Positions 11,346 to 36,877 of a stretch of 64,000 bases of DNA are shown one piece after another (the stretch's first letter is position 1; each line of letters opens with the position of its first letter). The position numbers and the translations under genes were made by a program. The notes under the pieces are model-generated. The model ran no database searches and had not been told where the DNA came from. It worked only from the letters and a program-made list of their open reading frames with translations. The stretch is taken from NCBI RefSeq assembly GCF_019649055.1, contig NW_026570252.1, forward strand, positions 868,001 to 932,000, written 5' to 3'. Source of the DNA: Paramacrobiotus metropolitanus (lineage: Eukaryota > Tardigrada > Eutardigrada > Parachela > Macrobiotidae).

Positions 11346-11349
11346 ATGC

Positions 11350-13173: not shown

Positions 13174-13604
13174 CAGACTAAAAGCGTGCGGCACAACCGC
13201 TACGGAAAAGCGGCAGCGCGGGAGCGGATTGTGGAGAAGAAATTGGATCATCTGGATCACTTTCCCGTGGAAAGGACGGTTGACAGGTAGAAAAACGGTT
13301 ATTAATTACGGGATTGGTTAGCTGGTAAAATTGGCAATTTTCATTGGTCCGTTCTGAGCTGAGCATAGACGTAGGCGGAGTTTTGCACACGGCGCGCATG
13401 TCTGGCCGTTGACCGTGACGTCAGGCAGATATAAAATTTAAATGGAATAACGTGATTGGTCAGTTATCGGAGCTGTGATTGGTCGAAATTTGAACTGAAT
13501 AATTTGAGCTAGCGAACCAATAGTAACGAAGTAAACAACGTAAATGGGGATTTTCCATTGAACTTGAGCTGTAATGGGAAATTTGAATTGAGACGCGATA
13601 TTTA

Positions 13605-14000
13605 GAAAGGGAAAGTGACCTTTAACCAAAATTGAGCTGGAAAGTGACCTTTAACATTGAGCTGGAAAGTGACCTTTGAGCTGAGTTGGAAGTGACCTTT
13701 ATCAAAAGTTGGAACTGATTAAGTTGACCCAAAAAGTGACCTTTTAACGAAGTTGAAATCGAGTCAGTTAGTAGTACAGCGATATTAGCAGCTGTAGAAT
13801 TTTATTCGTAAAAGTGTTCTGAACTGTAAAAAGGCTCTCGAAGTTTTGTCTGAAAAGTGACCTTTAGGGCAAATCTCTCGAACTTTTTATCGAGAAAGTG
13901 ACCTTTAAACGGAACTTAGCCGAAATTTTTCAAACGAAAAGTGACCTTTAACAAGGACTTGATAAAGTTCGAAGTAAAAGTGACCTTTAGGGCAACTTTT
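13605..14000 (+). repeat. Array of nine TGACCTTT motifs in the untranslated leader
   Basis: AAAGTGACCTTT or a close variant occurs nine times between about 13,614 and 13,990, spaced about 20-90 bp, all in the same orientation. It is the inverse complement of the AAAGGTCAC motif that dominates the coding regions downstream. No open frame covers the array, so it is not a protein repeat. Confidence 0.9.
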
Positions 14001-14064
14001 TAAAACCATACAATAACGTGCGTGTGAGAACAATTGACAGGAGCGTCCAAGTTATCCGATCAAC

Positions 14065-17000
14065 ATGGACAAAGATAATGAGGAACCGACATCACACAGC
14101 AGCCAGGGAAGCAGGAGCTCCCGAGGATCACAGCAAAGCGCAGTTGATCCTTATAAAAAGGAATACAAGTCGCTCGCGCGTCCAGTCGGACATGACAGAC
14201 AGACCCGAGCGGCTGTGACCTTTGCAAGGAAGGACATCAAAGGCAGCGACAGCACGTACCAAGTGGCGCTTGGAGCTACACAGAACGAAGAGAGCTCCAG
14301 CGGAGACGGAAAGCAAACCCCCGCGTCTGTGGCGGGAGGAAAACCGATGAACCAGACAAAGGTCACTGGGGAGGAAAAACCCACAGAAAAGGAAGTGGAG
14401 GCAGTCGGGGTATCCCAGCCAGATACCACCACTGTCAGAATAAACGAGCAGGATAAAAATGTGAACCTGACTCAATCGGGAGGTGAAAAGACAAAGGTCA
14501 CCGAAGAGGAACTGGCTGAACTCGGATTGAGTGACCTTTCCTTGAATGACAAAACGGCAGACGATGACCTTTGGGCAACTCCAATGGTCTCAGATGAATC
14601 CAATGAATCGTACTTCACGGATGATGAAACGACGATGAATATGTCGTTCCAATCCGCGATGAGACAAGCTGACCGTGCTGAAGAGATGACACCGTTTAAG
14701 GACATACCCGAGAACCTTATTGAACGAACAAAAACTGGAAAGGTCATCAACGTAAGATCACCGTCACCGAACAGTCCCACGGCAACTTTGAGGAGACGTG
14801 TCAGTGAATTGGAAAAGGAACTTGAAAATAACGAATGTCAGGCGGACAAGCGGAAACAGGAATACCGGGAAAGACTGACAACACTTGAAACCCGCCTGTT
14901 CGATCTGGAGCAGCAACAGGGTGACCTTCAAAGTGCCGCCGATGGTTGGAAACTGAAATACGAAAGACAGAAGGAATTGGCTGACGAATACTTGAAAATG
15001 GCAGATGACAGAGAAATGGAAGGTCATCTCGCAGTCAATGACCTAAATGAGAGTATGTCGGAGGAATCAGCGGAAAGGTCACGGCACTTAGCCGAATTGA
15101 AGGAGGAGTGTGACGAACTGAAACAAAAGGTCACTGAGGCTGAAACAAAAAGAGACGAATACGCGACCAAACTCGCCGAAGCTACCCAACGATTGTTGAC
15201 AAATACCACTGAGGTATTCAAGCTCAGGAACGATCTGAAGCAACGGGACGAGAATATCGGAATCCTCCAACGAGAATCGAAAGGTCATCAGAGAAGAGCT
15301 GATGAAGCCGTCCAAGCGGCTAAAGACCTGAGGGACCTTACAGCCACTGAAGGAGTGAGGCTGGAAAAGGAGATAAAGCAGGTGACGGAGGAGAACAAAG
15401 AGTTGAAGGAAGATAAAGAAAAGGTCACCGCAGAGAACATTGAATTGAAAGAAACCGCTAAGACAATCGTTGAACAAGGTCTGAGATGGGAGCACGAGGC
15501 ACATCTCCTTGATGTAAAGGTCACCGCGCTCGAATTGAAAGATAAAGAGTGGCAACAAGCGGTTCACCAGAAGACACAGGAAATCATCAGACTCAACACG
15601 GAGTTGATAGATATGACCCAAACGGTAATGACGGGGGAAGACGAGGTCACCCAGACAAAAAACCAGCTGAAGGCAGCAGCGGAAGAATATATAAAACTAG
15701 AAAGAGAAGTGACCCAATTGGTAGAACACATCAAAAAGACGGAAAACGATACCGAAAAGATCGTTCAAGAAAGGACATTCCAACTTCACCATCATATGCT
15801 GAAGGTTAATCAGGAAAATCAGGATTTGAAAATCGAGAAGGAAGAATTTCAACTGAAGGTCAGACGCCTCGAAGACGAGAATAAGGCCCTCAGTATGTCC
15901 AATAAACAGAAGGATGAACAACTCCTGCAATATGGAGTGAAGACGGCAATAGTGGAGTCTCCCCCGCCCAGTTATAGCAAGGCGCATGAAACGGGCAAAA
16001 GCTTCCACTTTGAGATGCCGCTGCGAACTGGCACCGGTAAAGGAAGCATTAAAACGGAGCGGAATGGCGAAAAGGTCAACGAGGATAAAGAGCAGCTGTC
16101 GGAAGGTTACCCGCATATGAGTCGGGGTGACCCTTCACAGTTTCCTCCGCACATCGAAACGAACGTCTTTGTCAACGAAGGACGACGAGACGAACAATCC
16201 AGTCGACAAGAGCGCCCAAGGAAGTCCCGCTACGCAAAGGAGAGGCGTAATACAAATGACGACGAAAGTGGCGAAGAGGAAGAGGATCAGAAAGTGCAAT
16301 CGGGATTTGCATTAGCAAAAGCACTCAACTCCATGGCTCGAAAAACGCCACTGGTGACCTTTGATGGTAGTCGCGATACAGTGAATGGCTGGACGAGGCT
16401 GGTAAAAGACACTCAACGAACATACCAACTTACCGATGACCAGATCATGATCGAAATAGCCAGCGCAGTGAAAGGTCCTGCTAAAACCTGGTTTGAAAGC
16501 GAAAAAGATATCGCATCAGAAGACGGGATTGAATATTCAGTAACAGAATGGATGGACAAGTTTAAAGATGAATACGGTGATCGAGATGAAGAAGTCCTAG
16601 GTTTACGTGAGGCCTACGCAAGAAAATTTGAACTCGGAAAGGAATCGCTTGACCAGTACTATCAAGCGATGATGCGATTCAAAGCAAAACGGATTATTAC
16701 GGAAAAACAAGCAGTGGGCTTCCTGATCGAAGGATGTAGAGTGGATAATGAACTCTACAAGGCTTTGCGTACACAGAAGTGCAGAACGCCAACCGATGTA
16801 AAGGATTTCTTCAGACACTGGGCAACGGGAGAAGAGAAATATAAGGCGCCTAAAGGTCAACGTAACCAAGATTACGCGACAATTCGGTCTGGCCCCGTTG
16901 AGAATGTGCCACAACAAAGGATGGCGGCAGTACCAGTTCAGCAGCCGGTTGAATACCGTGTGGAGACTCCGGTCAGAGAGGTCATGGAAAAGGTGACCTT

Positions 17001-17856
17001 TATCGACAGTCAGACGGGACAGCCAATAACATATGCGATGGTCGCGGCGATACAAGCGGCGGCTCAAGTGAGACCGGCACCTCAGAATGTGGCCCCACCG
17101 ATACCACAGAACGTGGCCCCTATCAATACTGGGTTACCACAACAGGGAAACGGCAACTTTGTTGGAAATGGATATGGAAATGGGAACTGGAACGGAGGTC
17201 AAGGAAACTTCCGAAACCAAGGCCAAGGACAAGGCAACTTCCAGCCGAACAGAGGAAACCAGAATAACTTTCAACAGAACCAGGGGTCACGAACGGAATT
17301 TAAGTTCCAGATGATTGATGGATGGGTGGCGAACAATGCGCAGATGTGCCAGTACTGTATGTATGGCAACCACCAGACGCAAGGATGCAAGTTTGCCAAC
17401 ACACCACCGGACCAGAACCCGAACCTGTTTGCCTTTAACGAGTGGCAACGACTGCGCGGGCTTGGTGGTTGGCGCCTAGCGGTGAATAACGGATATGACC
17501 TCATCGCCCAATGGTACCAGCACAAAGCAAATTTCCAGAATCAGCAAGGAAACGGAAATTATGGAAACAGAAACGGGGGGCAAGGCGGTGGCAACCGTGG
17601 CGGCTTCCGCGGCGGCTTCAGAGGAAGAAACAGAGGCTTCGGTCGTGGAAATTGGAACGGTGGCAACCGAGGCAACGGAAATGGAGGTGGCCAAGGAAAC
17701 TACCAACAGGGTGGTGGCCAATACAATAATGGCGGCGGCGGACAGAATATGAACTCGGCTAATGATATCGGACAACAACAGGGAAATGTACAAGGAAATG
17801 TGCAGGGCGCTCAACAAGGAGGTGCGCCGGTTCAGGGAAACGGGCAAGATCAGTAG
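14065..17856 (+). CDS. gag: Gag polyprotein of the giant LTR element, 1263 residues
   Basis: Residues about 240-620 are a long heptad-rich, charged coiled coil. Residues about 755-935 match the capsid-type retrotransposon Gag pattern (TFDGSRDTVNGW, then WFESEKD, WMDKFKDEYGD and YYQAMMRFK). A CCHC zinc knuckle is present: C1095, C1098, H1103, C1108 (CX2CX4HX4C). The C-terminus is Gly/Asn/Gln-rich with RGG-like repeats, expected to bind RNA. At 1263 residues it is several times the usual Ty3-type Gag, mainly through the coiled coil. Near the stop lies a -1 frameshift signal. ATG at 14,065 follows the motif-rich leader; the ATG at 14,018 in another frame opens only a 66-codon frame. Many codons are parts of AAAGGTCAC motifs. 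Confidence 0.88.
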   Translation: MDKDNEEPTSHSSQGSRSSRGSQQSAVDPYKKEYKSLARPVGHDRQTRAAVTFARKDIKGSDSTYQVALGATQNEESSSGDGKQTPASVAGGKPMNQTKVTGEEKPTEKEVEAVGVSQPDTTTVRINEQDKNVNLTQSGGEKTKVTEEELAELGLSDLSLNDKTADDDLWATPMVSDESNESYFTDDETTMNMSFQSAMRQADRAEEMTPFKDIPENLIERTKTGKVINVRSPSPNSPTATLRRRVSELEKELENNECQADKRKQEYRERLTTLETRLFDLEQQQGDLQSAADGWKLKYERQKELADEYLKMADDREMEGHLAVNDLNESMSEESAERSRHLAELKEECDELKQKVTEAETKRDEYATKLAEATQRLLTNTTEVFKLRNDLKQRDENIGILQRESKGHQRRADEAVQAAKDLRDLTATEGVRLEKEIKQVTEENKELKEDKEKVTAENIELKETAKTIVEQGLRWEHEAHLLDVKVTALELKDKEWQQAVHQKTQEIIRLNTELIDMTQTVMTGEDEVTQTKNQLKAAAEEYIKLEREVTQLVEHIKKTENDTEKIVQERTFQLHHHMLKVNQENQDLKIEKEEFQLKVRRLEDENKALSMSNKQKDEQLLQYGVKTAIVESPPPSYSKAHETGKSFHFEMPLRTGTGKGSIKTERNGEKVNEDKEQLSEGYPHMSRGDPSQFPPHIETNVFVNEGRRDEQSSRQERPRKSRYAKERRNTNDDESGEEEEDQKVQSGFALAKALNSMARKTPLVTFDGSRDTVNGWTRLVKDTQRTYQLTDDQIMIEIASAVKGPAKTWFESEKDIASEDGIEYSVTEWMDKFKDEYGDRDEEVLGLREAYARKFELGKESLDQYYQAMMRFKAKRIITEKQAVGFLIEGCRVDNELYKALRTQKCRTPTDVKDFFRHWATGEEKYKAPKGQRNQDYATIRSGPVENVPQQRMAAVPVQQPVEYRVETPVREVMEKVTFIDSQTGQPITYAMVAAIQAAAQVRPAPQNVAPPIPQNVAPINTGLPQQGNGNFVGNGYGNGNWNGGQGNFRNQGQGQGNFQPNRGNQNNFQQNQGSRTEFKFQMIDGWVANNAQMCQYCMYGNHQTQGCKFANTPPDQNPNLFAFNEWQRLRGLGGWRLAVNNGYDLIAQWYQHKANFQNQQGNGNYGNRNGGQGGGNRGGFRGGFRGRNRGFGRGNWNGGNRGNGNGGGQGNYQQGGGQYNNGGGGQNMNSANDIGQQQGNVQGNVQGAQQGGAPVQGNGQDQ

Positions 17857-17877
17857 GCACCGGTGAGCCTATTGATC
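17835..17877 (+). promoter_or_regulatory. -1 programmed ribosomal frameshift signal at the end of gag
   Basis: The heptamer G GGA AAC (17,835-17,841) is in the correct phase for gag codons GGA and AAC. A 6-nt spacer follows, then GATCAGTAGGC (17,848-17,858) pairing with GCCTATTGATC (17,867-17,877) as an 11-bp stem with one G-U pair and loop ACCGGTGA. The -1 frame is open through the gag stop (17,854-17,856) into the next ORF. All three classical parts are seen; efficiency is unknown. Confidence 0.85.
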
Positions 17878-19223
17878 GACCCGACCCGAAACCACCGGAT
17901 AAAAAGGGAATGGAAAGGTCACCACTGCAGAATGGTACTGCAGTGAATGTGACCACTGCAACGGCTATAAGGATGCCGTCAGCGCAAAAAGAAAGTGGAC
18001 CGGCTATATGGATGCCGCAACCACAGCAAACGGCTATACGGATGCCGCCACAGCAAATTGAGACGGCTAAATGGATGTCGTCATTGCAAAAGGAAATTGA
18101 AACGGCTATAAGGATGCCGTCACAGCAGCAAAAAGAACTGGTTATCGGGAAACCAGTACAAGTGGATAAAAGGTCACCGCAGAATGGTACTGCGAGTGGA
18201 AACGCGCAACGAGACCAAAGGTCACCGCAGAATGGTACTGCGAGTGGAAATTGTCGTGACGGTAGCGCGACACTGCGAACAGCGCAGCAAAACGAAAGGT
18301 CACCGTATTGCAGCGAAAAGGTGTTAGCTGAACGCCGCGCATTACGTAATGCGAAGATTCAACAGGCGTTGTTGAACCAGAAGAAGCCGCAGAATAGCAC
18401 TACAGAAGAGGATGAAGAAGTGCATCATTCGAAATTCCGAGAGTATATGGAAGAACGCGGCATACCGAATCACCAGAGGTCACCTTCCGTTGGAAAAGTC
18501 CAAGTGAGAAGTAAAGGAGCGAGTGCGAACGCTAAAGGTCACGGTGAAAGCGCCGTGCCAAAAGGTCAAGAAACAGACTTGACACTGCGAACAGCGCAGC
18601 AGAAGATTAGCGAACCGGCACAACAGAACTCCGACGACTCACTTGTAGATGCAGTAACGCTGCAACGGAAGGAAATATGGCGAAAAGTAGCCTACAGACC
18701 GAATGGGAATCACGGGATGTGGATACCCGCGACACCGAAAGCGAAACAAAAAGGTGGAATGTCGCAAGAAGATTACTGGGACATGCGAGAATTGCGAACA
18801 CAACATGAGAGAAAACGACTGGAAGAACTGGTTACCGGGAAAGAAGTCAAAAGGTCACCGAACTTAGCTCCAGTATTCAACGCAACCGAATACAAGAATG
18901 CACAAGCTGACCTGAATAACCCGCGAAACGCACCGCCGGAAAATAAACCGCTGAATTATGGAGAAAAAGTCCCCATACAAAAGTTGACAGGTGGCGGATT
19001 TGTTATAAAGCGCAACGAAAGGTCACAGGACTTAACGCAAAATGAACAAAAGGACGGTCAAATGAAATGGCGCAAACGCAACAGAGTAGCGCAGTTGGAA
19101 GGTCACGGGACTTATCACAAGCATTGCAACAGGATGCTAATGACAAGTCACCGGCCCGAACGGACGGAATGTCTTCGCAGACTAATCCGACGAAAACGAA
19201 TAATGAAGTGTCAGCAAAGGTGA
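17842..19223 (+). CDS. Second ORF (437 residues from its first ATG), read as a -1 extension of Gag
   Basis: The first ATG is at 17,910, but the frame is already open across the gag end, so a Gag fusion through the frameshift at 17,835 is the likely product. The protein is hydrophilic, low in complexity and has no recognised domain. Early on it contains five TAIRMPS-type repeats, which at DNA level are hairpins, then RSPQNGTASGN twice and TLRTAQQ twice, also hairpins. I cannot assign an enzymatic role. It may be a spacer between Gag and Pol whose sequence is governed by RNA structure. It overlaps the next ORF in another frame. Confidence 0.65.
17923..18242 (+). repeat. Two hairpin families in the second ORF
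   Basis: Family one: loop AATGGTA in stems CACTGCAG/CTGCAGTG (17,923-17,945) and CGCAG/CTGCG (18,178-18,194 and 18,226-18,242). Each of these directly follows an AAAGGTCAC motif. Family two: CGGCTATANGGATGCCG (stem CGGC/GCCG, loop TATANGGAT) at 17,962, 18,001, 18,031 and 18,103, with one imperfect copy at 18,064. The perfect 5-bp hairpin CTGCG-AACAG-CGCAG also occurs twice, near 18,270 and 18,584. Confidence 0.75.
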
Positions 19224-19648
19224 TTGAATGGATGACCGAAAAGGGATATGATATGGTTACATATGAAAGGTCACCAGACGGGATGAAAGACAAGGAAGCA
19301 GATGAATTGAAGCGAGCTGACCAAATAACAAGTGAAGTCATTGAGAAGTTGCGAGATAAACGAAACGAAAACCGCAAAGAGGAACTGATCCACGAGGCGA
19401 TAAATGAAGTGACTAAAGGTCACGTGGACAGCACAAAAGCAAATGAGCAAGTGCAGAATGTTGAAAAGGTCACCAGCGGCAAAATGGCTGCAGGGAAGCA
19501 AGCGGATCAGAAAAAACCGCAGAAATTCTATGATGTCCGAACTGACGTCCCACACAGGATTGACAAGTTGAGGGAGATACTGAAAGGTCATAGCATTCCG
19601 GCGAAAGGACAAGTGCCTCCCGACATGGATCCGGGCCAGTATCGCTAA
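19046..19648 (+). CDS. Third ORF between gag and pol (193 residues from its ATG)
   Basis: The frame is open from 19,046 with an ATG at 19,067 and a stop at 19,646-19,648. It lies in the -1 frame relative to the second ORF and overlaps it by about 178 nt. The product is charged and probably helical, with no recognised domain. The overlap has no canonical XXXYYYZ heptamer, so entry may be by another frameshift type, by initiation at 19,067, or the break may be a mutation or sequence error that split one ORF. It in turn overlaps the open pol frame (19,564-19,648), again by a -1 step. Confidence 0.55.
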   Translation, partial: TKGRSNEMAQTQQSSAVGRSRDLSQALQQDANDKSPARTDGMSSQTNPTKTNNEVSAKVIEWMTEKGYDMVTYERSPDGMKDKEADELKRADQITSEVIEKLRDKRNENRKEELIHEAINEVTKGHVDSTKANEQVQNVEKVTSGKMAAGKQADQKKPQKFYDVRTDVPHRIDKLREILKGHSIPAKGQVPPDMDPGQYR

Positions 19649-22600
19649 TTCCTGTGAAATGCAAGATCCATACATTGAAGATTCAAAATGGAAAACTGCC
19701 CAAAAGAATTGAAGCGTACACTCATGAAGTGAAAGTGGGAGACATAAAGGTCAACGCAATGTTGGACACCGGCGCTGAGACGTCGCTGATCAGCAAACCG
19801 TTTTGTGAGAAGAATGGACTTCATATGCTCCCATTGCCACCAGACAGACTGGTGAAGATAAACGGAATTAGCGGAACGTCAGGATTCATGGTGACGCATT
19901 ATTGCGTAGCACCAGTGACCTTAAGGAAAAAGACTAGCGAACATTCATTCTACGTCCGACCGAAGTGTGACGACGTACAGGTGCTACTGGGATTCGACTT
20001 CTTAGAGAAGAAGTTCGTACTAATGGATAATGAAGGCGAAGAGGAGAAAGAAGATGACCCGAAACCGATCGCCAAAGTTCAAGTCGGAAAGGTCACCGAA
20101 CTTGTAAAACAGATGGAAAATGCTCAAACGGTTAACAAAACGCTAATCCCAGTACCAGAGGCACCGGGAAAGGCAAATGAAATGAGGGCGAAAAAAGAAT
20201 TGTCACCATTTGAGCAGCTGCAAATGATCCAACAGGAGATTGAAAATACACTAAACCGGACAATGCTGACACAAAAGGGAAAAGAAAAGGTCATCCCAGT
20301 ACCAGAGGCACCGGGAATGACGAGAGTGCAGCAGAACGAGATTAGCCAACGGACAATCCCGGTACCAGAGGCACCGGAGAAGAAAAGTGAAAGTGGAAAT
20401 GTCAAAAAAGCGAACGAGAGGAAAAAGGAACCGCTTGCGCCAGATATGGATGAGGCGATCATATTTCTCCCGGACGGGAGAAGTATGATCGCAGATAACT
20501 ATGATCAGGGAGCCACAGAAAAAGAATGTGTTAAAAAAGTTATCCCAGTACCAGAGGCACCGGGAACGAAAGATGAAAGGTCACCAGTTGAGAACTGGGC
20601 GTCAGAGCCGGATCCGAAAAATGTCAGTAAGACCTTTTTCGAACCACGATCTGCTACCGAAAATGAAATCGAAGAAAAAGATTTGCAGAGAGTACCAGAG
20701 CGTACCCCGAACTTTTTCGAACCTCGATCTGCTACCGAGAATGACGAAAAGTCACCAACACTTGAAAGGATAGCTGCCACACAGAAAGAAGCGACAGCTG
20801 CAGCGAAAGAATCGCTTGTGCCTGGCTTGGAGTGGGCAAAGTCTATCCCAGTACCAGAGGCACTGGGAGTGAAGACGGCTAAAGTCGGGAAGGACAAAAA
20901 GAGTGAAAGACTGCGGATATTGAAACGCATAGCCGAAGAAGAGCAGATGTTTGTGAGCGAATTCCGCAACAAAGCGCTTGAACAGTTGAAAGGTCACCAA
21001 TTGAACAAAGAGTCAGGGATTATCGAAATATCCTCCGAAGAAGCCAGTATAACAGAAATCGAATGTGAGCAGAAAGCCACAGCACAGGAGAAGAAGGTTG
21101 CCAACCCGCAAATGAATCGAAGGATATTAACTCCAGAAGAACGAATGGGGAGTTGTGGACACGGTTACTACGAGGATCCGTGTAGAGTGCAACCACAATG
21201 GGAATGCACTGAATGTTGTCAAAACGCCTCCCAAGATGACCTTTCAGAATGGCCGAGATGTAACGCTGCATTATCAGATCTTAAAGGTCACGTCCAAAAA
21301 GAAGTGAAAAGTATCATGCGGACAAACGAAATGTGGAAACCACATATCGAACGGTATCATTGGAATAGATATCGGACTTGGTTGTCATGCGTAAAAAACT
21401 TTATTACGGGGAGAGGAAAATGGTTAAACCATTGGCAACAACGCGCGGATAATGGAATTCAAGATCCCTTTGACCAGGTAAAAACGAAAAGGAAACTTGA
21501 AAGGGAAATGGAGGTAATGAACGAAGAAGTACAGCTATGGGAAGAAGCAAGAATAGAACTGTTCTGGGACTTCCGTATAAACCACATGTACAAAGGTCAA
21601 GGGAGAACGGTTATATTCCCAACAGGACTTGGTATACCGGTATATGAATCGGTGTTGGTATTTTGTAAAGCACTCAAAGAGGACAACTGGCAGATATTCG
21701 ACAAATACTGGAGGAAATTTGAAGCGGAGATTCCAACATTTGACACAAAGGAGATGCGCGAATTACAAGTAACTCGGAAAAGAAGGTCACCGGGATTGAT
21801 GGAGAAGAAAAAGGTGACCTTTGCACCAGATCCAGATGGAGTCGACTACCCAGAACGAGGCGGTGATACGTGGTTCATGTACGAAACGATTCCGAGTGAT
21901 GACTGGGTTACCGAAGAGCTGATGGCAAACTGTGTCTTCGTTGGTCCCAAACGACCTAAAGGTCACGAGACGGTCCAACAGGATCAAGTTGATAAAGAGA
22001 CTGTGAAAGAAGTGGAAAAGGAAGAAACAGCTAAAGAGACAGCTGAAGGAGGATCGAACGAGACGGAAGAAAGTCCAAAATCAGCTTTTGACATCGCACG
22101 GATGTTAACAGATAGAGATGAAATGTGGAAGAAGTTTAAGGAGGAAGTCGAAAGGATATCGAATGAACAACAAAACCCAGTAACTGAGGCAAAAAACGGG
22201 GAAAGGTCACTCGATAACGGTGAGGAATGCCCGCCGGTCGAGTTGACCGAAAAGCCATTAATGAACCTCGAGAAAATGGAAAAGTCAAAATTGGATGAAG
22301 AAAGGTCAAACTCCGATCAATCAGAAAGGTCACCAACGAGAATCCGGGTAGCGAGGAGTCACCCGAGAATCGCCGCACGAAATGGGCGCAAGGCAAAGGA
22401 AGCGGACAAACCTCTGCTCAAAAATTCGAAAGCGAAAAAACTTAGCGATTCGCAAGAAAACGAAAGTGACCTTTCATCAGGTGATGAAGGAGTTGATGAG
22501 CGTCCACTTGAAAAGGCTGACAAAGGTCAAGCCGATGCACAGGAATACGAGAGCAGCGATTCGGACTCGGAATGGACGAGTTCAAGTGACAATTCAACGA

Positions 22601-26940: not shown

Positions 26941-27066
26941 CCCACATAAATACGAATAAGGGGTTACTTCACTAAAAATAGGAGTTGGGATGGCGTAAAG
27001 GAAAGGTCATTACTGTTAAAAAGCTAACCACTGTTGTTTCATTATTACAGAAGGTAAGCTAAGTTA
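26941..27066 (+). promoter_or_regulatory. Short spacer with a strong 3' splice-site sequence before the fourth large ORF
   Basis: CTAAC (about 27,023) is followed by a pyrimidine-rich run and ATTATTACAG ending at 27,050, 16 bp before the ATG at 27,067. This matches a branch point plus 3' splice site and suggests a spliced subgenomic mRNA for the downstream ORF, as retroviral env uses. Confidence 0.55.
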
Positions 27067-30000: not shown

Positions 30001-31980
30001 CGAGAAACGTCTCGTGAATCGGAAGCATCGGAAGTAAGCCTTCCAAGTACTTCGACGGTTAGCACGAGATCACATACGGACCCGAAAACGACTAGATCAA
30101 GAACCGTCGAGCCAGGAAGCCTAGCGGAGGCTCTTGAAAAAGGGAAAAAAGCAAAGAGCGAACCCGTAAAATTGAAAAAGAAAGGAAAAGAGGCCAGGAA
30201 AATCGATGCATTGGCGATGGCTAACTACATCGAACCGGATGGAGAAAGTGAACTTGATTATTCGGGAGACGAAGCGGAATTTGAAGATCCCGATAATGAT
30301 AATCTGACCACAATTGATGAAATCATTGACGCATTCAATGGAGCGGAGAAGAATTTTACACGGATACGAACGACATCAGTGACGTCAAAATTCAGAACGG
30401 GCTTAAAGAAATATTTGAGAAAAGAAATGCACCGTAGCTTCACCAAACAGAAGTTTGATGTAGTATTGGAATACGCTCGGAATGCGGGAAAACTCCTCCA
30501 GAAACACCCGAATTTCGCGTATAAGGCTAAATTATTCAGGCCGTCAAGTGCGGACAAGTCGCTGACGACTCCAAACGAAGATCCCTCAATGCGAGTAGAA
30601 AGGGCAGTCGCGGGAATGACAAGCCCGTTGGGGTCAACGAGTCACCGGATCAGCCAATACATTAATGCCGTGTGGAATGACGGAAAGGGCTTGATAAAGG
30701 AAATCGACACGGCCACTGAACGCGTGTTGCCCAGGATGATAAAACAGAACATCCTCTCCACAACGAACGCACATAAAGGTTATCCGATTCGATATACGAG
30801 AGTAGGCTTGATACCGCCGGAAAAACAAGTCCACTGTCATATGTCCGATAGTCAGGAGATGGATAAGGTGCCATCGAGTGGAGATCCGACAACTCCCATA
30901 CTAAATCGGATCGCACAGTTAGCAGCCGACGAAGAAGCCATCCAGGCTTCTTCTAAGAAAGTGATGAAAAAGAAAGGACCAATGGACGGGGAATCGGAAG
31001 AGAGCGACGATGACAAATCAGCCCCAACGCCTTTGGAACCGGCGACAGAGAAGCCTAAAGGCCGAGAGACACCTGTAACTGCGACAGAAGAAACTCAACC
31101 GAAAGGTCACGGGACTTCGGAAAAAGGGGAGAAAGAAAAGGTCATGCTCCCAATGGACAAGGCAGCGGCAGAAGCAGAAGCCGCATCTGCGCGACAAGTG
31201 TACCAGAAATCATTGTTCGCACCGTTGAAAGAGGCTTTTGAGAAAGAGCGGTCGAAGTCGGCAGACGAAGTGGGAGGTCATGAGACTTTACCACAGAAGG
31301 AGAAAGCTGATGAACCGAAATCGGCACAGTCATCATCCGGCTCGCTGGCAAAATTGAGGATTGACGAAACGGAGAGAACAGACCCAACAGACTCGGCAAT
31401 ATCCCCCCAGAAAACGGAGACTAGCGGTATAAAAACAAAAGAACCGACAGATTACACGCTAGGCGCACCATTGGATGTGACTAACCGGACATGGAGCGAA
31501 GTCCAAGCGGCGCTTCAGAACATTAGAGAAGGCGAAATGCTCGGACCAGACTTGAAAAGGCAGGTCGCTGAAAACTCGAATGGAAGATCCTCACTCAGCA
31601 TGACCGAGCGAGTTTTGAAACGGGCATATAAGGAAGGAAGACTGGGATGTAAATACGACAAAGACAACAAAATTATTTACTATATTCCGAAACAGGGCAC
31701 GGACCGCACACCCAGACTCAAAATGGAACTGGAGGCCTGGAAGATAGCCATCACAGATGTGGCTTTGGACGCCATTGGCGGTACTAATGGGGCGTCATGG
31801 AATGACCTTTCGAACTTCATGGCCGTCCATTACGAACTGGGAGAGTTGAACATTGAAGATGATAAAGAATGGATTAAGAATGCCGTTGAAGCATTGATAG
31901 CAGATGAAGTACTTCATATTAACCAGGACGGCCGAATTGACTTCAAGCCGTATAAACCGCCGGCAAAGGAGTCTGAGTGA
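27067..31980 (+). CDS. Large extra ORF downstream of pol, 1637 residues, unknown function
   Basis: I do not recognise the whole protein. The first 280 residues are Gly/Pro/Tyr/Gln-rich. Residues about 487-620 and 635-765 look like a tandemly duplicated domain (EALQFIPPEERHNPRVLIQMM against EQLWNLIPVSQRQDPLVQAN). A long acidic and lysine-rich low-complexity region follows. The last about 75 residues (about 1556-1630) resemble a winged helix of linker-histone H15 type (AITDVALDAI, GASWNDLSNF, IKNAVEALIADEVLHI). There is no signal peptide or transmembrane segment, so it is not an envelope protein. It may be a nuclear or nucleic-acid-condensing protein; that is inference. AAAGGTCAC motifs are common in it. 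Confidence 0.8.
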   Translation: MDRLERQNSENSDSESIGNPLKTSTPKRMEGEYGYDTSYGEGSTSSAGTAQNEPGQGGYYGGPEYYVYHDPGQQTTYQDTVNWVHHGLPAGTQYSGQITSVPYQSHPGSYTSLMGPPQVMGSARMLMPPPQQTTPSRFMGYGGLGGMLATPVQSQRASPILPPFPETGGLSLSDIGAPRLRTPQQLGAQRPHRNSPQKGGRRGGNRFDSPRPRGVLPSLGPKLEQVGPDGLRATPPGEPTVHDYSPKLPLDMKDDDARLNVIASNEEGLTAADTAAIQDFNRMCRDLYRIHMRVEDEHAFYGRLMSLDAIIEAVHIAMKEKTKSIEVKRKELAIRIASMKQYHPALTNRKWPPMIEKIQMFLKTIPKETGPSASSAAGPSRASVEAPVEEMSDSALMETKRKIEIELTKRAERSRASSTAGSVRGRTSSVTEPSSGTVKSGKRVRSPTTSPRESDKKEQRTKKVTTSKAPVPVGRKSAPPTPPGPEAVSVRLPKCRTFTVKYTGTDHNERKVTARIVDKRTNKEIDSYNPLADKSVKTEIGERSKTEVNEALQFIPPEERHNPRVLIQMMKHVVSKVAVEENAWIRIKVGTNDDHLAYTYTVDGKLLTKERVRPKPTADPDPSKRTLEDYESTMKYTDGTCRKVTLTVHFGDGTTECITAVIVDPITGDPIPYAPWDVSEESAEHANRAALEQLWNLIPVSQRQDPLVQANTLISMMRHRTEIDEAHFRLTRKMENGAYKTVFYDAKKNPLWEIVTQGQTKETPHLESRALDPAQEGGAGEMAEASVAEKAGTESTRRPSELDESEEEEADDDSAEEQADEDDDRAEEPAEDKQPPKVVVKPRKAAKLEEAMNRERAKKGDSPKKRKEAEDRKKKSGDDNESTSTGKKKEERKKKDEPPSHDVEILDEPVAEVEERSPQPVTSKKFIIESATSKLKVTEPEPSTSKGKVIAVKQIVPVVISASTTKQRKEKGMREKAKRETSRESEASEVSLPSTSTVSTRSHTDPKTTRSRTVEPGSLAEALEKGKKAKSEPVKLKKKGKEARKIDALAMANYIEPDGESELDYSGDEAEFEDPDNDNLTTIDEIIDAFNGAEKNFTRIRTTSVTSKFRTGLKKYLRKEMHRSFTKQKFDVVLEYARNAGKLLQKHPNFAYKAKLFRPSSADKSLTTPNEDPSMRVERAVAGMTSPLGSTSHRISQYINAVWNDGKGLIKEIDTATERVLPRMIKQNILSTTNAHKGYPIRYTRVGLIPPEKQVHCHMSDSQEMDKVPSSGDPTTPILNRIAQLAADEEAIQASSKKVMKKKGPMDGESEESDDDKSAPTPLEPATEKPKGRETPVTATEETQPKGHGTSEKGEKEKVMLPMDKAAAEAEAASARQVYQKSLFAPLKEAFEKERSKSADEVGGHETLPQKEKADEPKSAQSSSGSLAKLRIDETERTDPTDSAISPQKTETSGIKTKEPTDYTLGAPLDVTNRTWSEVQAALQNIREGEMLGPDLKRQVAENSNGRSSLSMTERVLKRAYKEGRLGCKYDKDNKIIYYIPKQGTDRTPRLKMELEAWKIAITDVALDAIGGTNGASWNDLSNFMAVHYELGELNIEDDKEWIKNAVEALIADEVLHINQDGRIDFKPYKPPAKESE

Positions 31981-32337
31981 AGGGGACGAGTGTAATGTGC
32001 AGCGAGTAATGAACCCTGCATATTACAGAGAAGCATAAAATAGTTAAAAACGAATGAGAAAAGCTTTATGGCAAATTGAAAGAGAAAAGGTCAACGCGGG
32101 CAGTAGCGGCGATAAGACTAATAGAAAGGTCACAGTAGACAGAAAGTGCTGATAACGTGAGAAAGGTCACCACGTTACAGTGATAGAAAGGGCAGCAGGA
32201 GCTAGGAAAGTCTCAGCTCAGTAACGGAATAGGCGCAAAAATGCTAGAGAAGCCTTGATAATGGATAAAGAATGGAAACGATTTATACAGAAACATTACT
32301 ATGATGGATTGTTTTAATTGCAGATTTTAAACGGAAG
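31981..32337 (+). promoter_or_regulatory. Inter-ORF region with motifs and a 3' splice-site-like sequence
   Basis: Three AGGTCA motifs lie at about 32,089-32,170. One, AGAAAGGTCAC, is exactly the loop of a 7-bp hairpin (TAACGTG 32,153-32,159 with CACGTTA 32,171-32,177). GATTGTTTTAATTGCAG ends at 32,323, 14 bp before the next ATG, again a plausible 3' splice site. Confidence 0.55.
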
Positions 32338-35076
32338 ATGGCACAAAAAGGTCAAGCCAACCGACGAGACCAGGGAACACTTCAAACGGACGTCGATCAG
32401 TCTACGGGCTATAACCCAAAGTGTCCGGACTGTTTACGGAATAATAGAAAAGTTGACAAAAAGTTTCCGTGTTACGCTTGCGTTCACAAGTTGGGTGACC
32501 CACACATCGTTTCACTCGTGGGACTTATGGAAGCTAAACGGGGGAACATGGACGTTTTTCGAAACCTCATCAGCGCGAGGAACTATGGCAGCATTCCAGT
32601 TGAAGAGCGGATGCTACTTGAGGATCGTTACCGGGAAGCGATCCAGAATCATGAAAGTGGCTGGGATGAGACTTTGGAGCCATTGAAATGCCCGCAAACG
32701 GATGCATACCGTAAGAAGTTCGAGGAGGACCAGGAGAAAATGCGACGGCAACAGCTGGAGGACGAACTCCGGGCAAAGATCAATGCGGCGAATCAAAAGG
32801 CGAGCGAACAGGCCGCAAGAGAGGCGCTGCCAAATCCGTCGAGTTCAACTGTACCGACAGCCAGCCTCAACGAAGAAGAAGCGCAACTTACACGTCAGTC
32901 TCTTATCATTCAGATTGACACTCTGACGAGTGATCCGGCCGCTATGCAACAGGAACTATTTGATGCGCTGTTGCGGGAGAAATTGAGACTGCAGAAGGGT
33001 TTCGCCCCAGCACCGTACATAAAGAAGGCAATTGAAGAGCGTATGGAAGACCTGCGCAAATCCCGCCAGAACGAGAGCAATGTTCTACAGGCGCTCAGAG
33101 GATTTAGACGAGATGACGTGTTTACACGACCCCGTTCACCGCCGCATAGAGAAAGGTCACGCGGACATTCACGTGAACACGAGCGGACTTCAGAAAGACG
33201 AAGCGAAAGGTCACGTGAACACTCCCGCGAAAGGACACGGGATTATCGTAGCGAAAGGTCACGCGAACGTTCCCACGACAGAGATTACCGTGGCGGAAGA
33301 GGATGGGTGCGCCATGGAAATGAGATAACGGAAACAAGCATTCAGCGGAAAATCGATACGGCAAAGATTTTGGCCGCGACAAGAGGACGTGAAGAGCAAC
33401 GGCGTGCGGAGACTTACCGCACAGAGCCTGAAAAGAAAGGTCATCAGGTGCCGTTGGAAGTTGGATTCCGTAACCGTAACGTTAGGATGTCAACACCTGA
33501 AAGGTCATGGGACAAAAGACGCGAACATACGCGAAATCGAACGCCAGACCCACAGGATAGACGATGGCAGGAAAGAGCCAAGTATTACGCGGGTTTTGAA
33601 TCTGGCGCGAGTAAAAGGTCATCAAGCGCGGAAAGGGAAGATTCACCCCCAAAATACCAAAGGATGGAATCAACGGTCCACGTGGTGGATCCAATCATTA
33701 GCACTGCACAAGAAGATGACCCAATGGAAGGAGCCAGTTCAGTCGCAGAAGTGTCCCAGAATGTGACCCATCGACGAAACGTAATTCTGGACAGCGACCC
33801 CCAACCGGCTACACCGGCGAGTAATGAACCGCCGCAGTTAGAATTAGGAGAACGGAGCGCACAAGAAAGTCAGCGCGCACCGGATGAACGTCGTGAAGCC
33901 GATCGACGAACGATTTCTAGGTTCAATAATCGACACCCGGACACGATCGACATGGTATACGATATGCGCGACACCGACGAACAAAAGACGGAAATTTGCC
34001 GATATATGGGGATTGAAGATGATTCGGCAGAGGCGAATAAGATTCACACGATTCTGAATCAGCTTCGCCAGTTTTTACTCGATTCTGGGTACGCGAGAGA
34101 GATTAAGAGGGGAGTGGAAGAAGGAACTTTTCGTCGACTATACATTCCTCGTGACTCTGCGCGAGATTGTTATCTCCCCATCCGACGAAATGGATTACAC
34201 AGTTTGCTGGATTTGAGCCTATTGGACGTGCCATTGGACACGACTGACCCAGTCGGGATGACACAATTTTATTACACAGACTATGATGAACGACAGGAAT
34301 ATGTGGCTCAGTTCGTCTTACGACACATAAATCCGGCCTTCAAGTTGCTTGCAGCTAGAGCATCCATCGGATTACAGGTGGATCCCACAGACCATGCCGC
34401 AAAAAGGATGGGGCAGAAGGTCTTCGCTGCGAGATTGGCACACTATAAAACACAGAACCAGTTGGTTTCCAACACAATGAAGGACGACATCCCGCCACTT
34501 TTCCGACCTCACGTGGTTAAGTTGGGAGAGCCTATGGAACATGTTGGAATAGCCCACACGGCTCGGAAGGCGTTGAAAAAGTGTAGGACACGAAGGGAAA
34601 AGGGAAATCTTACACAGCGCCATGCCTCCCAGGTCGAAGAGCGGATTAATAAGATCAAAGATACTATGGGAAGCGATTATGTTGAACCAGTGGACGGAGT
34701 AGACGTCTACATTAACGAATTTCTGGTGAATAAAGGCGACCGACGCCCAGAACGCGCCCCTAACCAGATAGGACGACGCGGCCTAAGAAACCAGCAACTC
34801 CGCGATAACCTCGCTGATGTGCAACGGCGACTGGCGGACGACCCTAATAACCGAAGACTGCGACTGGAAGAAAATGACGCACGCCACCGGGTAGAGGCGG
34901 TTAAACGCAGTCGCCAAGGGAAAGGTCGCGGTCAGCGAGAAGTTGACCCGGAAAAGGTCATAGCAGTTGATTCCACGGAACCAGTTGACCGAACGTCTGA
35001 CCGCAATCAACCAGAAAGTTCTAAGAAGCGCCCGCCGAGAGACGGCGAGGAGGGCGACTCAAATGAAATGGAATAG
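32338..35076 (+). CDS. Last extra ORF, 912 residues, zinc-binding motif and RS-like domain
   Basis: The N-terminus has CX2CX12CX2C (C29, C32, C45, C48), a possible zinc finger. Residues about 270-325 are an Arg/Ser/Glu-rich stretch (RSRGHSREHER, then repeated ERSRE units) like RS domains of splicing regulators. The C-terminal 150 residues are very basic and charged. No transmembrane segment is seen. An RNA-binding or RNA-export/splicing regulator would fit an element with spliced mRNAs, but this is inference and I recognise no homologue. The RS region is where three AAAGGTCAC motifs fall 40-60 bp apart, so the repeated amino acids partly reflect the DNA motif. Confidence 0.8.
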   Translation: MAQKGQANRRDQGTLQTDVDQSTGYNPKCPDCLRNNRKVDKKFPCYACVHKLGDPHIVSLVGLMEAKRGNMDVFRNLISARNYGSIPVEERMLLEDRYREAIQNHESGWDETLEPLKCPQTDAYRKKFEEDQEKMRRQQLEDELRAKINAANQKASEQAAREALPNPSSSTVPTASLNEEEAQLTRQSLIIQIDTLTSDPAAMQQELFDALLREKLRLQKGFAPAPYIKKAIEERMEDLRKSRQNESNVLQALRGFRRDDVFTRPRSPPHRERSRGHSREHERTSERRSERSREHSRERTRDYRSERSRERSHDRDYRGGRGWVRHGNEITETSIQRKIDTAKILAATRGREEQRRAETYRTEPEKKGHQVPLEVGFRNRNVRMSTPERSWDKRREHTRNRTPDPQDRRWQERAKYYAGFESGASKRSSSAEREDSPPKYQRMESTVHVVDPIISTAQEDDPMEGASSVAEVSQNVTHRRNVILDSDPQPATPASNEPPQLELGERSAQESQRAPDERREADRRTISRFNNRHPDTIDMVYDMRDTDEQKTEICRYMGIEDDSAEANKIHTILNQLRQFLLDSGYAREIKRGVEEGTFRRLYIPRDSARDCYLPIRRNGLHSLLDLSLLDVPLDTTDPVGMTQFYYTDYDERQEYVAQFVLRHINPAFKLLAARASIGLQVDPTDHAAKRMGQKVFAARLAHYKTQNQLVSNTMKDDIPPLFRPHVVKLGEPMEHVGIAHTARKALKKCRTRREKGNLTQRHASQVEERINKIKDTMGSDYVEPVDGVDVYINEFLVNKGDRRPERAPNQIGRRGLRNQQLRDNLADVQRRLADDPNNRRLRLEENDARHRVEAVKRSRQGKGRGQREVDPEKVIAVDSTEPVDRTSDRNQPESSKKRPPRDGEEGDSNEME

Positions 35077-35270
35077 TGCTGATCGTTAGGATCACACTAT
35101 TAAAAGGGGCGTCTACGGCAATCGTCGGTACGTCACAAGAATGAGAAATGAGAAATGGTGTTGTATAAGGGCGACGTGACATATTAACATTAACTGCATT
35201 TGTGTATTTGTTGTTTTCAGCGTTTATAGCACAGAATCGCAAAGGATAAAGAAATCATGTGGAGCAGCGA
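35077..35270 (+). promoter_or_regulatory. Post-ORF region with a third 3' splice-site-like sequence
   Basis: TTAAC boxes at about 35,183-35,192 are followed by TGTATTTGTTGTTTTCAG ending at 35,220. No ORF follows, so a spliced RNA beginning here would contain only the structured 3' region. Confidence 0.45.
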
Positions 35271-35732
35271 TTGGGGTTTAAATTGATTCGGTCTATTACG
35301 CCGGCCCCAAAGGAGTTGCTACGGCAGTCAGCCGGCTCTCCTCCTTAAGCGACTCAGTGTTATAAATTAGCAAGAGAAACTACGGTAATCAAGCCGGATC
35401 TCTTGAAGACGAAGATGGGCCATAAGCGGCGAAAAAGAGAAAGACAACAGGTGGAAATATTAATGGGGTTAAATTTGATTCGGTCCATTAGCCGGCCCCA
35501 TCAGAGACGCTACGGTGTACTATGCCGGCCACTCTCCTTAAGCGATTCAGTGTCAAAACTTAACGAGAGAAATAACGGTAATCAAGCCGGATCTCTCGTA
35601 CGGAAGCTGGGCCACAAGCGGCGAACAAGAGTAAAAGATTTAATGTGGAAGCGTCATGGGGTAAATTTAATGCGGTAGTTAGCCGGCCCCATCAGAGATG
35701 TTACGGTAAACTCTGCCGGCACTCTGGCCGCT
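35271..35732 (+). repeat. 193-bp tandem repeat made of hairpins with ACGG...GCCGG loops, 2.4 copies
   Basis: Units begin at about 35,272, 35,465 and 35,658 (partial). Each starts with a hairpin closed by TTGGGG/CCCCAA (35,271-35,310) or ATGGGG/CCCCAT (35,463-35,501 and 35,656-35,692). Next come hairpins around ACGG-N-GCCGG: AGGAG/CTCCT (35,311-35,342), AAGAGA/TCTCTT (35,372-35,404), AGAG/CTCT (about 35,503-35,535) and ACGAGAGA/TCTCTCGT (35,563-35,599). Stems change in compensating pairs while the loop core is kept. The loop also occurs in the 5' leader at 13,140-13,173. Confidence 0.85.
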
Positions 35733-35759
35733 CGAGGCATATTGAAGTGGGATGTGCGA

Positions 35760-36260
35760 CGGAAAGGTCAACTTAAAAGTTTTACCAGGGGGGCAAGCGA
35801 AGAAATGCTTGAAAGTCGGCAAAAATCGGCTAAGTTCCTCCATGACCTTTAATGGAAGTTTGAAGAAAAGTTGGATGACCCTTGGGATCATTACCGCCCA
35901 AGAGAGTCACCGTACCGGAATTCCAGTCGCATGACCTTTTGGGACCATTAACCCATAACGAGTCGCACATCTCAACGGATCATCTCAATAAAGGATGACC
36001 TTTATCAGGGAGGAAGCGAATTACGCTTGTCTACACGACGTCCCTCCATGACCTTTAACGGATCTCATTTTTAAGTCGTACAATTGATACGCACCATATT
36101 CCAAAGATGAAGCAGTATTTCTAAGTCGTACTTGATACGCACCTGATTCTCAAAGCGGATTGTGATGTAAGTCGCACTACGGATGCGCAGAATTGCTCAA
36201 CCGAGCGGAATGGGCCAAAGTGCGGAAAACGGTGGACAGGACCTGTGACCTTTACGAGTC
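35760..36260 (+). repeat. 3' noncoding cluster of TGACCTTT motifs and short repeats
   Basis: Five TGACCTTT copies lie at about 35,844, 35,931, 35,996, 36,048 and 36,245, with one AAAGGTCA at 35,763. A second repeated unit, AAGTCGTAC...GATACGCAC, occurs near 36,073 and 36,123 with a variant near 36,169; its CGT/ACG pair becomes GCA/TGC in the variant. As in the leader, the motif orientation is mostly TGACCTTT. Confidence 0.8.
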
Positions 36261-36520
36261 AGAAACGGAGGATCCTAGTCTACATTTGATTAATACTTTT
36301 GTTGATCTTATAACTGTTGATCTGTTTTTGTATTAGAATTGATATGGAATAGTATTTTAATACAGATCTCTTTATTTCACATTGTGCATTTGGAATTATG
36401 TGATTAAATGGATTAAGAGATTTGATGTTTTTGAGCACGCACAGACACCGGCGACCGTCGTTTTTCGTGGATTCGGGAGTTTGTCCAGCCTCAACGGAGC
36501 TCGGCATCCCCCCAGAGGCA

Positions 36521-36877
36521 TGTGAGACGAGGCTCACTAGCGTTCACGCCCGTGGCGCTAGGCGCTACGCCTTCGGATTACGGTCTGTGACGTGTCTCGC
36601 TCTGATTGGCTAGCTTGAGTTGTGTTAGTGGGCGCGGCTTAGCACGTGCTGCACAGTGTTACACACTGTTGAATTGGTTCTACGATTTACGATCGAGCTG
36701 TGCCGATCACTTGTTGATTTCTGGTCTCCAGACTTTCAATATTATTAAAAGTCAGCTATTAGCGGTGCGACGTTTCGCGATTCCGCGTAGTTCGCTATAC
36801 TTATCGCATAGCTCACTCCACGGGATAGATTCCGTTTCTGTCTCCGTATCTGGATCACAGTTGGATCTAGCATTAGA
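36521..36877 (+). repeat. 3' LTR of the giant element
   Basis: Identical by eye to the 5' LTR across 357 bp and followed by the target duplication AGGG (36,878-36,881). The bases just upstream (CCCCCCAGAGGCA) do not form the expected polypurine tract. Confidence 0.92.

Follow-up and report, generated by a model that had tools for sequence, protein, structure and literature searches.

Why does one short word, AGGTCA or its inverse TGACCT, recur so densely between positions 13605 and 36260 of the window (the whole 64-kb stretch of Paramacrobiotus metropolitanus DNA that was analysed), and does anything in the cell read it? This segment falls within one young giant Ty3/gypsy LTR retrotransposon of 24.5 kb (12361-36877; the features below lie on the plus strand unless marked otherwise). 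Its two 357-bp LTRs (12361-12717 and 36521-36877; BLAST 12361-12720 versus 36521-36880) are identical at 357/357 positions, and the flank sequence shows an unstranded target-site duplication AGGG (left copy 12357-12360, right copy 36878-36881). A primer-binding-site-like stretch beginning with TGGTAGCAGAGC (12718-12740) lies immediately 3' of the 5' LTR, in a leader part (12718-13604) that precedes the leader array (13605-14064, minus strand; 9 inverted sites, i.e. TGACCT), which is partly built of 23-25-bp tandem repeats. ORF1 (14065-17856, 1263 aa; 15 forward and 8 inverted hexamers) is gag-like, with a coiled-coil-like stretch and a CX2CX4HX4C knuckle read by eye; Pfam searches gave no match for ORF1 or for ORF2 (17910-19223, 437 aa; 9 forward and 1 inverted in its first 1155 nt). 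ORF3 (19067-19648, 193 aa) overlaps ORF2 and has 4 forward hexamers in its non-overlapping 420 nt. The pol gene (19654-26940, 2428 aa; 27 forward and 8 inverted) has the domain order PR-RT-RH-IN, with Pfam stretches at residues 25-116, 1248-1410, 1475-1601 and 1855-2027. It is followed by a non-coding gap (26941-27066; 1 forward site), ORF5 (27067-31980, 1637 aa; 11 forward and 1 inverted), a further gap (31981-32337; 3 forward sites, 8.4 per kb), ORF6 (32338-35076, 912 aa; 8 forward), a 3' non-coding region (35077-36260, minus strand; 5 inverted sites and 1 forward) containing a 193-bp tandem repeat, and a final part before the 3' LTR (36261-36520). A check for an env gene downstream of pol gave only a sub-threshold Pfam match for ORF5 and no Pfam match for ORF6, whose N-terminal CX2C...CX2C finger is conserved in families A (that of the present element), B and D. 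An Rfam search of the 64-kb window returned 0 matches.

The earlier note had counted about 110 hexamers where about 11 were expected by chance, with few in the flanking host DNA, and the exact figures bear this out: 80 AGGTCA and 32 TGACCT, together 112, lie in 13605-36260, a dinucleotide model predicts 6.3 and 3.8 (∼10 in total) for the internal region, and the flanks hold 12 in 39.5 kb (3 in 1-12360 and 9 in 36881-64000). Its description of the motif as spread across the whole element is right for the leader array, every ORF and the 3' region, but not for the LTRs, the 887 bases of 12718-13604 or the final 260 bases leading up to the 3' LTR, where neither the 7-mer nor the hexamer occurs. 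The word is packed more tightly in most of the non-coding stretches that carry it than in the ORFs: the leader array and the gaps between ORFs have 7.9-19.6 per kb, the ORFs of family A 2.2-4.9. The leader array is densest, at 19.6 per kb; a family D stretch interrupted by stops in every frame has 13.2 per kb, and the stop-rich copy L072 has 16.2. The 3' non-coding region, at 5.1 per kb, is no denser than pol. A few copies of the word sit in dispersed or tandem repeats.

The word proved longer than the hexamers named in the earlier note, which are its core. By z-score AGGTCA is the top hexamer and AAAGGTCA the top 8-mer; AAAGGTCA is present in 65 copies versus 0.8 expected and TGACCTTT in 25 versus 0.2, and the full form is AAAGGTCAY, i.e. 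AAAGGTCA(Y), with the core identical in either orientation and the next base mostly C or T. The A at both positions −2 and −1 is found at 84-100% of the 79 forward body sites and 14 leader or 3' sites of family A, at 61 and 78%, respectively, of its inverted body sites (n = 18), and at 82-93% in family D. The word is strict, since neighbours with one mismatch are little enriched, and then mainly at the edges. Sites come at about one per 200 bp with no fixed spacing (CV 1.21); no clear 10.5-bp helical phase or nucleosome period was found among them, and none of the receptor dimer layouts NurRE, DR1, DR5, IR0-8 or ER0-14. The word is monomeric and used in both orientations.

Codon usage does not account for these numbers. 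With 200 synonymous-codon shuffles per ORF and motif, made on non-overlapping ORF pieces, shuffled codons do not yield the observed totals: the six ORFs hold 92 hexamers versus about 16 after shuffling (AGGTCA 74 versus a summed shuffle mean of 12.9, TGACCT 18 versus 3.0). In five of the six ORFs no shuffle out of 200 reached the AGGTCA count, and in the 420-nt piece of ORF3 the count tied the maximum (4 and 4). The inverted copies that had been noticed in coding parts are present, as the 18 TGACCT, but exceed all shuffles only in ORF1 and pol and lie inside the null in the other four ORFs. Similarly, the use of all three reading frames by forward hexamers holds for five of six ORFs, and ORF2 uses two.

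Comparison of element copies then showed that evolution keeps the word as nucleotides. Between family A and the diverged family D, fourfold-degenerate sites were identical at 42/46 positions inside motifs versus 316/805 outside (p 9e-13), and the same excess was seen for A-E (12/13 versus 192/395) and A-D2 (12/12 versus 138/361); it was missing for A-B (20/42 versus 612/1476) and for A-C95, C95 being of clade B (2/7 versus 173/382). Within family A, third positions of 29 other copies differed at 25/1301 (1.9%) in motifs versus 10437/38840 (26.9%) outside. Moreover, 34 of the 57 alignable AAGGTCA/TGACCTT sites of family A are intact in D against a background of 6.8%, and 29 more are not alignable. 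These tests cover mainly pol, plus parts of ORF1, ORF2, ORF3 and ORF6, and AAAGGTCA(Y) is under nucleotide-level purifying selection. Because synonymous sites are conserved amid near-saturated surroundings, the coding sequence is subject to a second constraint, unusually strong, that acts on its nucleotides. Neither of the two outcomes that the earlier note named as refuting it, similar counts after synonymous shuffling or unconserved motifs among copies, came about. The earlier proposal that selection or spread acts on nucleotides rather than protein thus stands for selection but not for spread by insertion: across 3.9 kb of pol, most D-specific sites align without gaps to sequence that lacks the motif, and so resemble point changes.

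The sister clade, clade B, lacks the motif, and its C44 copy is equally young (LTRs 350/350 identical). Only 3 of 70 alignable family A sites are intact in B versus a background of 7.8% (p 0.37); site loss in clade B is thus close to the neutral rate, which indicates decay, and a purge of the word is unsupported. Since family E is placed relative to the motif-less copies with a bootstrap of only 63, a single loss, a double loss and a regain by E are not distinguishable. Clade B has words of its own, for which 60 codon shuffles gave a weak enrichment (AGCTGA 33 versus 11.7, AGATCA 36 versus 14.5, AACGANCT 15 versus 3.0).

These results suggest that something in the cell reads the word along the element, as it is kept even where the encoded protein could spare it. 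Our best reading, which we hold tentatively and at slightly less than even odds, is that the words are double-stranded DNA sites, in the provirus or cDNA, recognised by a host factor whose specificity is NR4A-like, a reader and a benefit that we infer. The NBRE is given in part of PMC10419244 as 5'-AAAGGTCA-3', bound by a monomer. The present word agrees with this definition, having AAAGGTCA with both 5' A residues and a monomeric arrangement, and binding by a host NR4A is predicted from it; the NR4A specificity rests on the motif letters. An SF-1/FTZ-F1/ERR site is TCAAGGTCA, with C preceding AAGGTCA, and such sites were rejected for this element (CAAGGTCA occurs 0 times on either strand in A, and 4 times forward and 0 inverted in D). 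The host genome has 63 zf-C4 exon matches, and a candidate HR38/NR4A gene on C45 (at about 296.8-298.4 kb) has three exons that show 86, 73 and 67% identity to an NR4A DNA-binding domain, compared with at most 66% for other host matches of at least 50 residues; by E-value, other host receptor exons rank above this split gene. AAAGGTCACC occurs 6965 times genome-wide, elements included, versus 771 for the reversed control, and among 100 listed positions in the first 2.49 Mb of C1, isolated plus-strand copies number 20 versus 5.8 expected (∼3.4-fold, p 3e-6). Remnants of old elements may account for some of the isolated host sites. Two related loci outside the element, with open frames of 129 and 109 codons, have three words each in the 120 bp ahead of the ATG, and one immediately behind it.

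Under this host-factor reading, the reader would have the specificity of monomeric nuclear receptors of NR4A/HR38 type, with AAAGGTCAC as its preferred word, and would cover the provirus, or the cDNA that has yet to integrate, through many contacts made independently at about one in every 200 bp. The likeliest benefit would be that occupancy over the 22.6-kb stretch keeps a long unit open and transcribed in the receptor's tissue, the array acting as a distributed enhancer or anti-silencing device with the leader array as its densest, promoter-near part; delivery of a long cDNA to the nucleus may be a second one. Clade B would have escaped the need for the word, perhaps through another factor to which its own weakly enriched words might belong. 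Were a host nuclear receptor to read the words, the element would have bound its life cycle to that receptor over almost its entire length. Several observations sit less easily with such a factor: double-stranded sites need no orientation order, even if local tandem duplication can explain that of the leader; the young C44 copy does without the word; the LTR and the following 887 bases are free of it; and the 3' region is not enriched over pol.

Orientation is where the main rival, a code of RNA-RNA pairing, has its strength. Here GUGACCUUU in the leader and 3' region would pair with the many AAAGGUCAC of the body in genomic RNA, either within one molecule (compaction or circularisation) or between two (dimerisation or selective packaging), and the word would be conserved because all pairing sites lock one another in. 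Complementarity is exact over 9 nt, and the ends are mostly inverted and the body mostly forward in A and D (forward/inverted hexamers 0/9 in the leader, 1/5 in the 3' region and 79/18 in the body), non-coding body stretches included (4/0, 11/0 and 21/2). Composition predicts the forward orientation in the leader too, contrary to its inverted sites, and codons do not explain the pattern: of the places that synonymous changes could reach, a larger share is occupied in forward than in inverted orientation (67/103 versus 14/35 in A, p 0.016; 73/103 versus 17/38 in D, p 0.006). The C44 copy, moreover, lacks leader words and body words alike. Against pairing, 18 of the 97 body hexamers are inverted, and the flanks beyond the core are not complementary (at position −3, T in 79% of leader and 3' sites and G in 47% of body sites). 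Predicted accessibility, from local folding only, is close to that of anagram controls (forward 0.54 versus 0.59, inverted 0.37 versus 0.33), and display of the words in RNA loops was rejected since the unpaired probability was not clearly above these controls. Pairing would also give no need for this particular word to persist across diverged families, nor for isolated host sites to be enriched in it. We consider pairing unlikely; if true, it would be a means of folding a 24-kb RNA.

A reader that the element itself encodes, be it the Gag nucleocapsid, the finger of ORF6 or some other accessory protein, appears still less probable; for it the word would serve as an address on the element's DNA or RNA that directs packaging, condensation of the cDNA or entry into the nucleus. 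Such a reader would suit a word distributed regardless of gene, the ORF6 finger kept in A, B and D, and enriched words that vary by clade, as predicted for a co-evolving reader. Yet the B copy retains relatives of ORF1, ORF2, ORF3, pol, ORF5 and ORF6 without the word, the D copy retains the word with no detectable ORF5, Pfam detects no known DNA-binding domain in ORF1, ORF2, ORF5 or ORF6, and a protein that binds single-stranded RNA would be unable to recognise the word in both orientations. It is very improbable that the word is the target of a host factor for silencing or defence, a burden from which clade B escaped: the word is present in A and D and lost in B with its young C44 copy, as this would have it, but synonymous-site conservation in A, D and E is unexpected for a burden, and the loss in B matches neutral decay rather than a purge. 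Finally, we give practically no credence to the idea that the word arose without function from codon bias, from repeats or from protein motifs. The few copies in repeats and the inverted hexamers within the null in four ORFs speak for it, whereas forward totals far above the codon null, conserved synonymous sites inside words, the use of all frames, and densities that peak in the leader array and in several of the non-coding stretches speak against it; for the forward word, codon bias and repeats are excluded as the cause by the codon null together with third-position conservation in A copies.

Transcription-factor sites of retroelements usually lie in the LTR, and regulatory words are usually sought in LTRs and leaders. 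The Drosophila gypsy insulator has 12 Su(Hw) sites in 340 bp of the leader downstream of the 5' LTR, according to part of PMC2374998. The present case is similar in being a Ty3/gypsy element with clustered leader sites, a host DNA-binding protein as reader being a feature of gypsy, and differs in its word, which is not the Su(Hw) consensus as that portion of PMC2374998 gives it. Here, moreover, 97 more hexamers are spread from the start of ORF1 through to where ORF6 ends, and the 3' region has another 6. With the NBRE of NR4A/NGFI-B/HR38 receptors the element shares the 8-mer AAAGGTCA and the lack of a dimer arrangement. To our knowledge, known NBREs are ordinary promoter or enhancer sites, and no series of about 100 NBREs in a coding transposon was found in the literature searched. 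DNA uptake sequences occur in hundreds to thousands of copies, are bacterial and are tied to competence DNA import, and we know of no import-receptor system for such a word in animals. Those of Neisseria and Pasteurellaceae are, by the partial account taken from PMC2346458, likewise one short word in many copies, also in genes and with an orientation bias, whereas the word here is in an animal retrotransposon. The DR2 elements of Alu are dimer sites, with one or few per element. They too are nuclear-receptor half-sites carried by a transposon, as an excerpt of PMC1785376 describes. The tardigrade word, unlike them, is kept all along the genes. RNA viruses have dispersed packaging signals, many short cis signals that act as hairpins in coding RNA; these resemble the tardigrade word as many short words inside coding sequence, but no loop display is predicted for it.

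More generally, it is possible, and we advance it with some reserve, that the words form an element-wide nucleotide address code, in which a strict 8-9-mer, repeated about every 200 bp through coding sequence with ends inverted and body mostly forward, marks all of the nucleic acid, as provirus, cDNA or RNA, for a single partner that recognises it by sequence, and which one sister clade abandoned or rewrote. By analogy, such a code would resemble uptake sequences, but over 22 kb of genes. Neither this element nor such a code was reported in the literature searched, which covered few subscription journals. One genome here offers a natural comparison of families with the code (A, D and E) and without it (B).

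The repeated word, an AGGTCA core within a longer unit, lies in a retrotransposon whose two LTRs (12361–12717 and 36521–36877, 357 bases each) are identical and flanked by AGGG on both sides, so that the element measures 24,517 bp and is a recent insertion. Six ORFs lie between the LTRs. ORF1 (1263 aa, gag-like), ORF2 (437 aa) and ORF6 (912 aa, 32338–35076) have no Pfam match, ORF3 (193 aa) and ORF5 (1637 aa, 27067–31980) have only weak matches below the curated cut-off, and pol (2428 aa) shows the Pfam order PR, RT, RNase H, IN of Ty3/gypsy. The nearest two pol proteins (96 and 95% identical) and all 13 ORF6 relatives among 8000 candidates scored are from the host, the tardigrade Paramacrobiotus metropolitanus.

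About 110 hexamers had been counted by eye between 13605 and 36260, with few in the flanking host DNA; the exact count is 112 (80 forward, AGGTCA, and 32 inverted, TGACCT), and the flanks hold 12 in 39.5 kb. The hexamer belongs to a longer unit, AAAGGTCA, usually with C or T as the next base; this unit occurs 65 times forward and 25 times inverted, where 0.8 and 0.2 would be expected. The word does not span the whole element, as the earlier note had it, since it is absent from the LTR, from the 887 bases that follow and from the final 260 bases before the 3′ LTR. Synonymous shuffling of codons (200 shuffles) gave ∼13 forward and ∼3 inverted hexamers compared with 74 and 18 seen in the ORFs. 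The forward count was beyond all shuffles in five of six ORFs and equalled the highest shuffle in the short ORF3 piece; the inverted count was beyond them in only two of six. At places where the encoded protein permits AAGGTCA or its inverse through synonymous codons, the window copy has it in 67/103 forward and 14/35 inverted cases.

Comparison between copies, which the earlier note had suggested, showed that the word is conserved at synonymous positions and is under selection at the nucleotide level. A search of the genome (169.8 Mb, 533 contigs), in which 106 of 1684 candidates were scored, puts the number of related RT matches at 106 or more. Within family A, to which the window copy belongs, 29 further copies differ from it by 7–13% in DNA along 4.17 kb of pol. 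Inside words, third positions are changed in 25/1301 comparisons, against 10,437/38,840 elsewhere; the 19 words were those of the window copy, and one of them (at 21959) occurs in none of the other copies. RT proteins of the 30 family-A pol segments (L009–L038) are nonetheless 98–100% alike, hence these lineages are long-lived and under strong protein selection. The related family D (copy on contig C9, 18.8 kb LTR to LTR, RT 87% at the amino acid level) is equally rich in the word, with 92 AGGTCA and 33 TGACCT in 17.9 kb. Over 3,914 aligned codons from ORF1, ORF2, ORF3, pol and ORF6 (none from ORF5, which has no detectable counterpart in the D copy), fourfold-degenerate sites were the same at 42/46 positions within motifs and 316/805 elsewhere, and twofold sites at 51/54 and 649/1152. 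Among alignable A words, 27/45 forward and 7/12 inverted are intact in D (7-mer background 6.8%); 27 forward and 2 inverted words were not alignable. In the pol segment of family E (contig C1), 9/15 alignable A words are kept (background 16.4%), and fourfold sites agree at 12/13 positions in words and 192/395 elsewhere. The earlier note had also considered spread; spread by insertion is not supported, because most words peculiar to D sit opposite non-motif sequence with no gap in the alignment and look like substitutions. Amino acids under words were better kept between A and D (126/176 versus 2145/3738 elsewhere), as if the word had held the protein; this was absent between A and E (34/45 versus 1056/1254) and between A and a further comparison copy, D2 (37/45 versus 1000/1246).

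The sister clade B, which is nearer to E than A is (by nucleotide identities and by a protein tree with other gypsy families as outgroup), lacks the word in the copies examined. In 27 kb of sequence, a copy on contig C44 shows a single AAAGGTCA or TGACCTTT and hexamers near chance level (10 AGGTCA, 11 TGACCT); its open frames, 6,803 aa in all, use 2 of 61 forward and 1 of 40 inverted reachable places. The LTRs of this copy are identical across 350 bases, so it is just as young as the copy in the window. Two further B copies have no 8-mers and 2 and 1 hexamers in the pol segment. B retains just 3/70 alignable A words intact, which is indistinguishable from the 7.8% background, so the sites were released rather than purged. 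Because A, D and E share positions of the word and D is the first to branch off, it would most simply be ancestral in the A/B/D/E clade. In the same genome, a less closely related gypsy family shows one AGGTCA and no TGACCT in the 4 kb examined. Clade B has weak enriched words of its own; its leader (L062–L064) carries AACGANCT (8) and GAGCTGA (9) where A has GTGACCTTT.

Orientation follows the parts of the element. Forward/inverted hexamers in A number 0/9 in the leader, 79/18 in the body (ORF1 start to ORF6 end) and 1/5 in the 3′ region, and 7-mers in D number 1/7, 81/18 and 0/6. The forward word takes up a larger share of its reachable coding places than the inverted word does of its own (A, p 0.016; D, p 0.006), and it also prevails in non-coding stretches of the body (4/0, 11/0 and 21/2). 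As base composition would favour the forward word in the leader too, the inversion at the two ends is genuine, although tandem duplication in the leader and inheritance mean that the sites are not independent. In A, the leader array (13605–14064) is densest, at 19.6 words per kb, followed by the inter-ORF gaps (7.9–8.4); the ORFs have 2.2–4.9 and the 3′ non-coding region just 5.1. In D, pol carries 5.4 per kb, an 834-base stretch closed by stops in every frame 13.2, and a 518-base stretch containing ORF6-like pieces 17.4; in copy L072, a partly ORF5-like stretch rich in stops reaches 16.2. Coding seems to limit the word where it is present, instead of causing it. Spacing is irregular (mean 216, CV 1.21), with no clear helical or nucleosomal period.

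Use in both orientations suggests that the word acts as double-stranded DNA or by pairing with its complement, and not as the target of a single-strand RNA binder. RNA pairing between complementary words best accounts for the orientation pattern, but reading as DNA is favoured by the letters of the word, by the host sites and by the absence of loop display, and we consider pairing unlikely. FTZ-F1/ERR receptors have the site CAAGGTCA, unlike the element's word, and it occurs 0 times in A and 4 times in D. The letters are instead exactly those of the NBRE, 5′-AAAGGTCA-3′, which PMC10419244 describes in its account of monomeric NR4A receptors as their binding site, and none of the dimer layouts tested occurs in the element. 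The host has nuclear receptors, as 63 zf-C4 exon matches show (for C4 zinc fingers in tardigrades, see PMC12941274). One gene, on contig C45, is 86, 73 and 67% identical in three successive exons to a generic NR4A domain, above any other match of at least 50 residues; intact exons of other host receptors had better E-values. Genome-wide, AAAGGTCACC occurs 6965 times versus 771 for the reversed control, a ninefold excess with elements included. Away from RT copies, 20 isolated words versus 5.8 expected were found among 100 matches listed, and these may include old element fragments. In two related gene-like loci outside the element (L070 and L071), the 120 bp upstream of an ATG contain three GTGACCTTTATA-like words each. 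Taken with the NBRE letters and the host receptors, this enrichment and these isolated and upstream words make a host factor plausible. The word, its selection, its layout and its distribution across clades in the copies examined are shown; a DNA reader, its identity and its benefit to the element are inferences, and we give the host-factor reading slightly less than an even chance. The word along the element's length might serve distributed activation or anti-silencing, our first choice of benefit, or, as second choice, nuclear delivery of the 24-kb cDNA.

Another, non-retrotransposon repeat has GTGACCTTTAGGTCGCCACGTGACCTTT-like pairs (L069 and C1:1547784, 2686082, 2688826 and 3224810). Within the element, the N-terminal extension of pol (20132–20578) holds four dispersed copies of a repeat with GTACCAGAGGCACCGG; GTACCAG, too, remains enriched over codon shuffling (11 versus 2.0). 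The 3′ non-coding region has a 193-bp tandem repeat in 2.4 copies (35238–35725). By eye, ORF5 seems to contain two tandem copies of one domain (residues ∼490–640 and ∼650–790) and its C-terminus looks winged-helix-like; a CPDC...PCxxC finger at the ORF6 N-terminus is kept in A, B and D. The element is embedded in a repeat family (12177–12360 and 36881–40003) that recurs in the window at 37044–37388 and 39446–40003, with inverted arms at 36873–37219.
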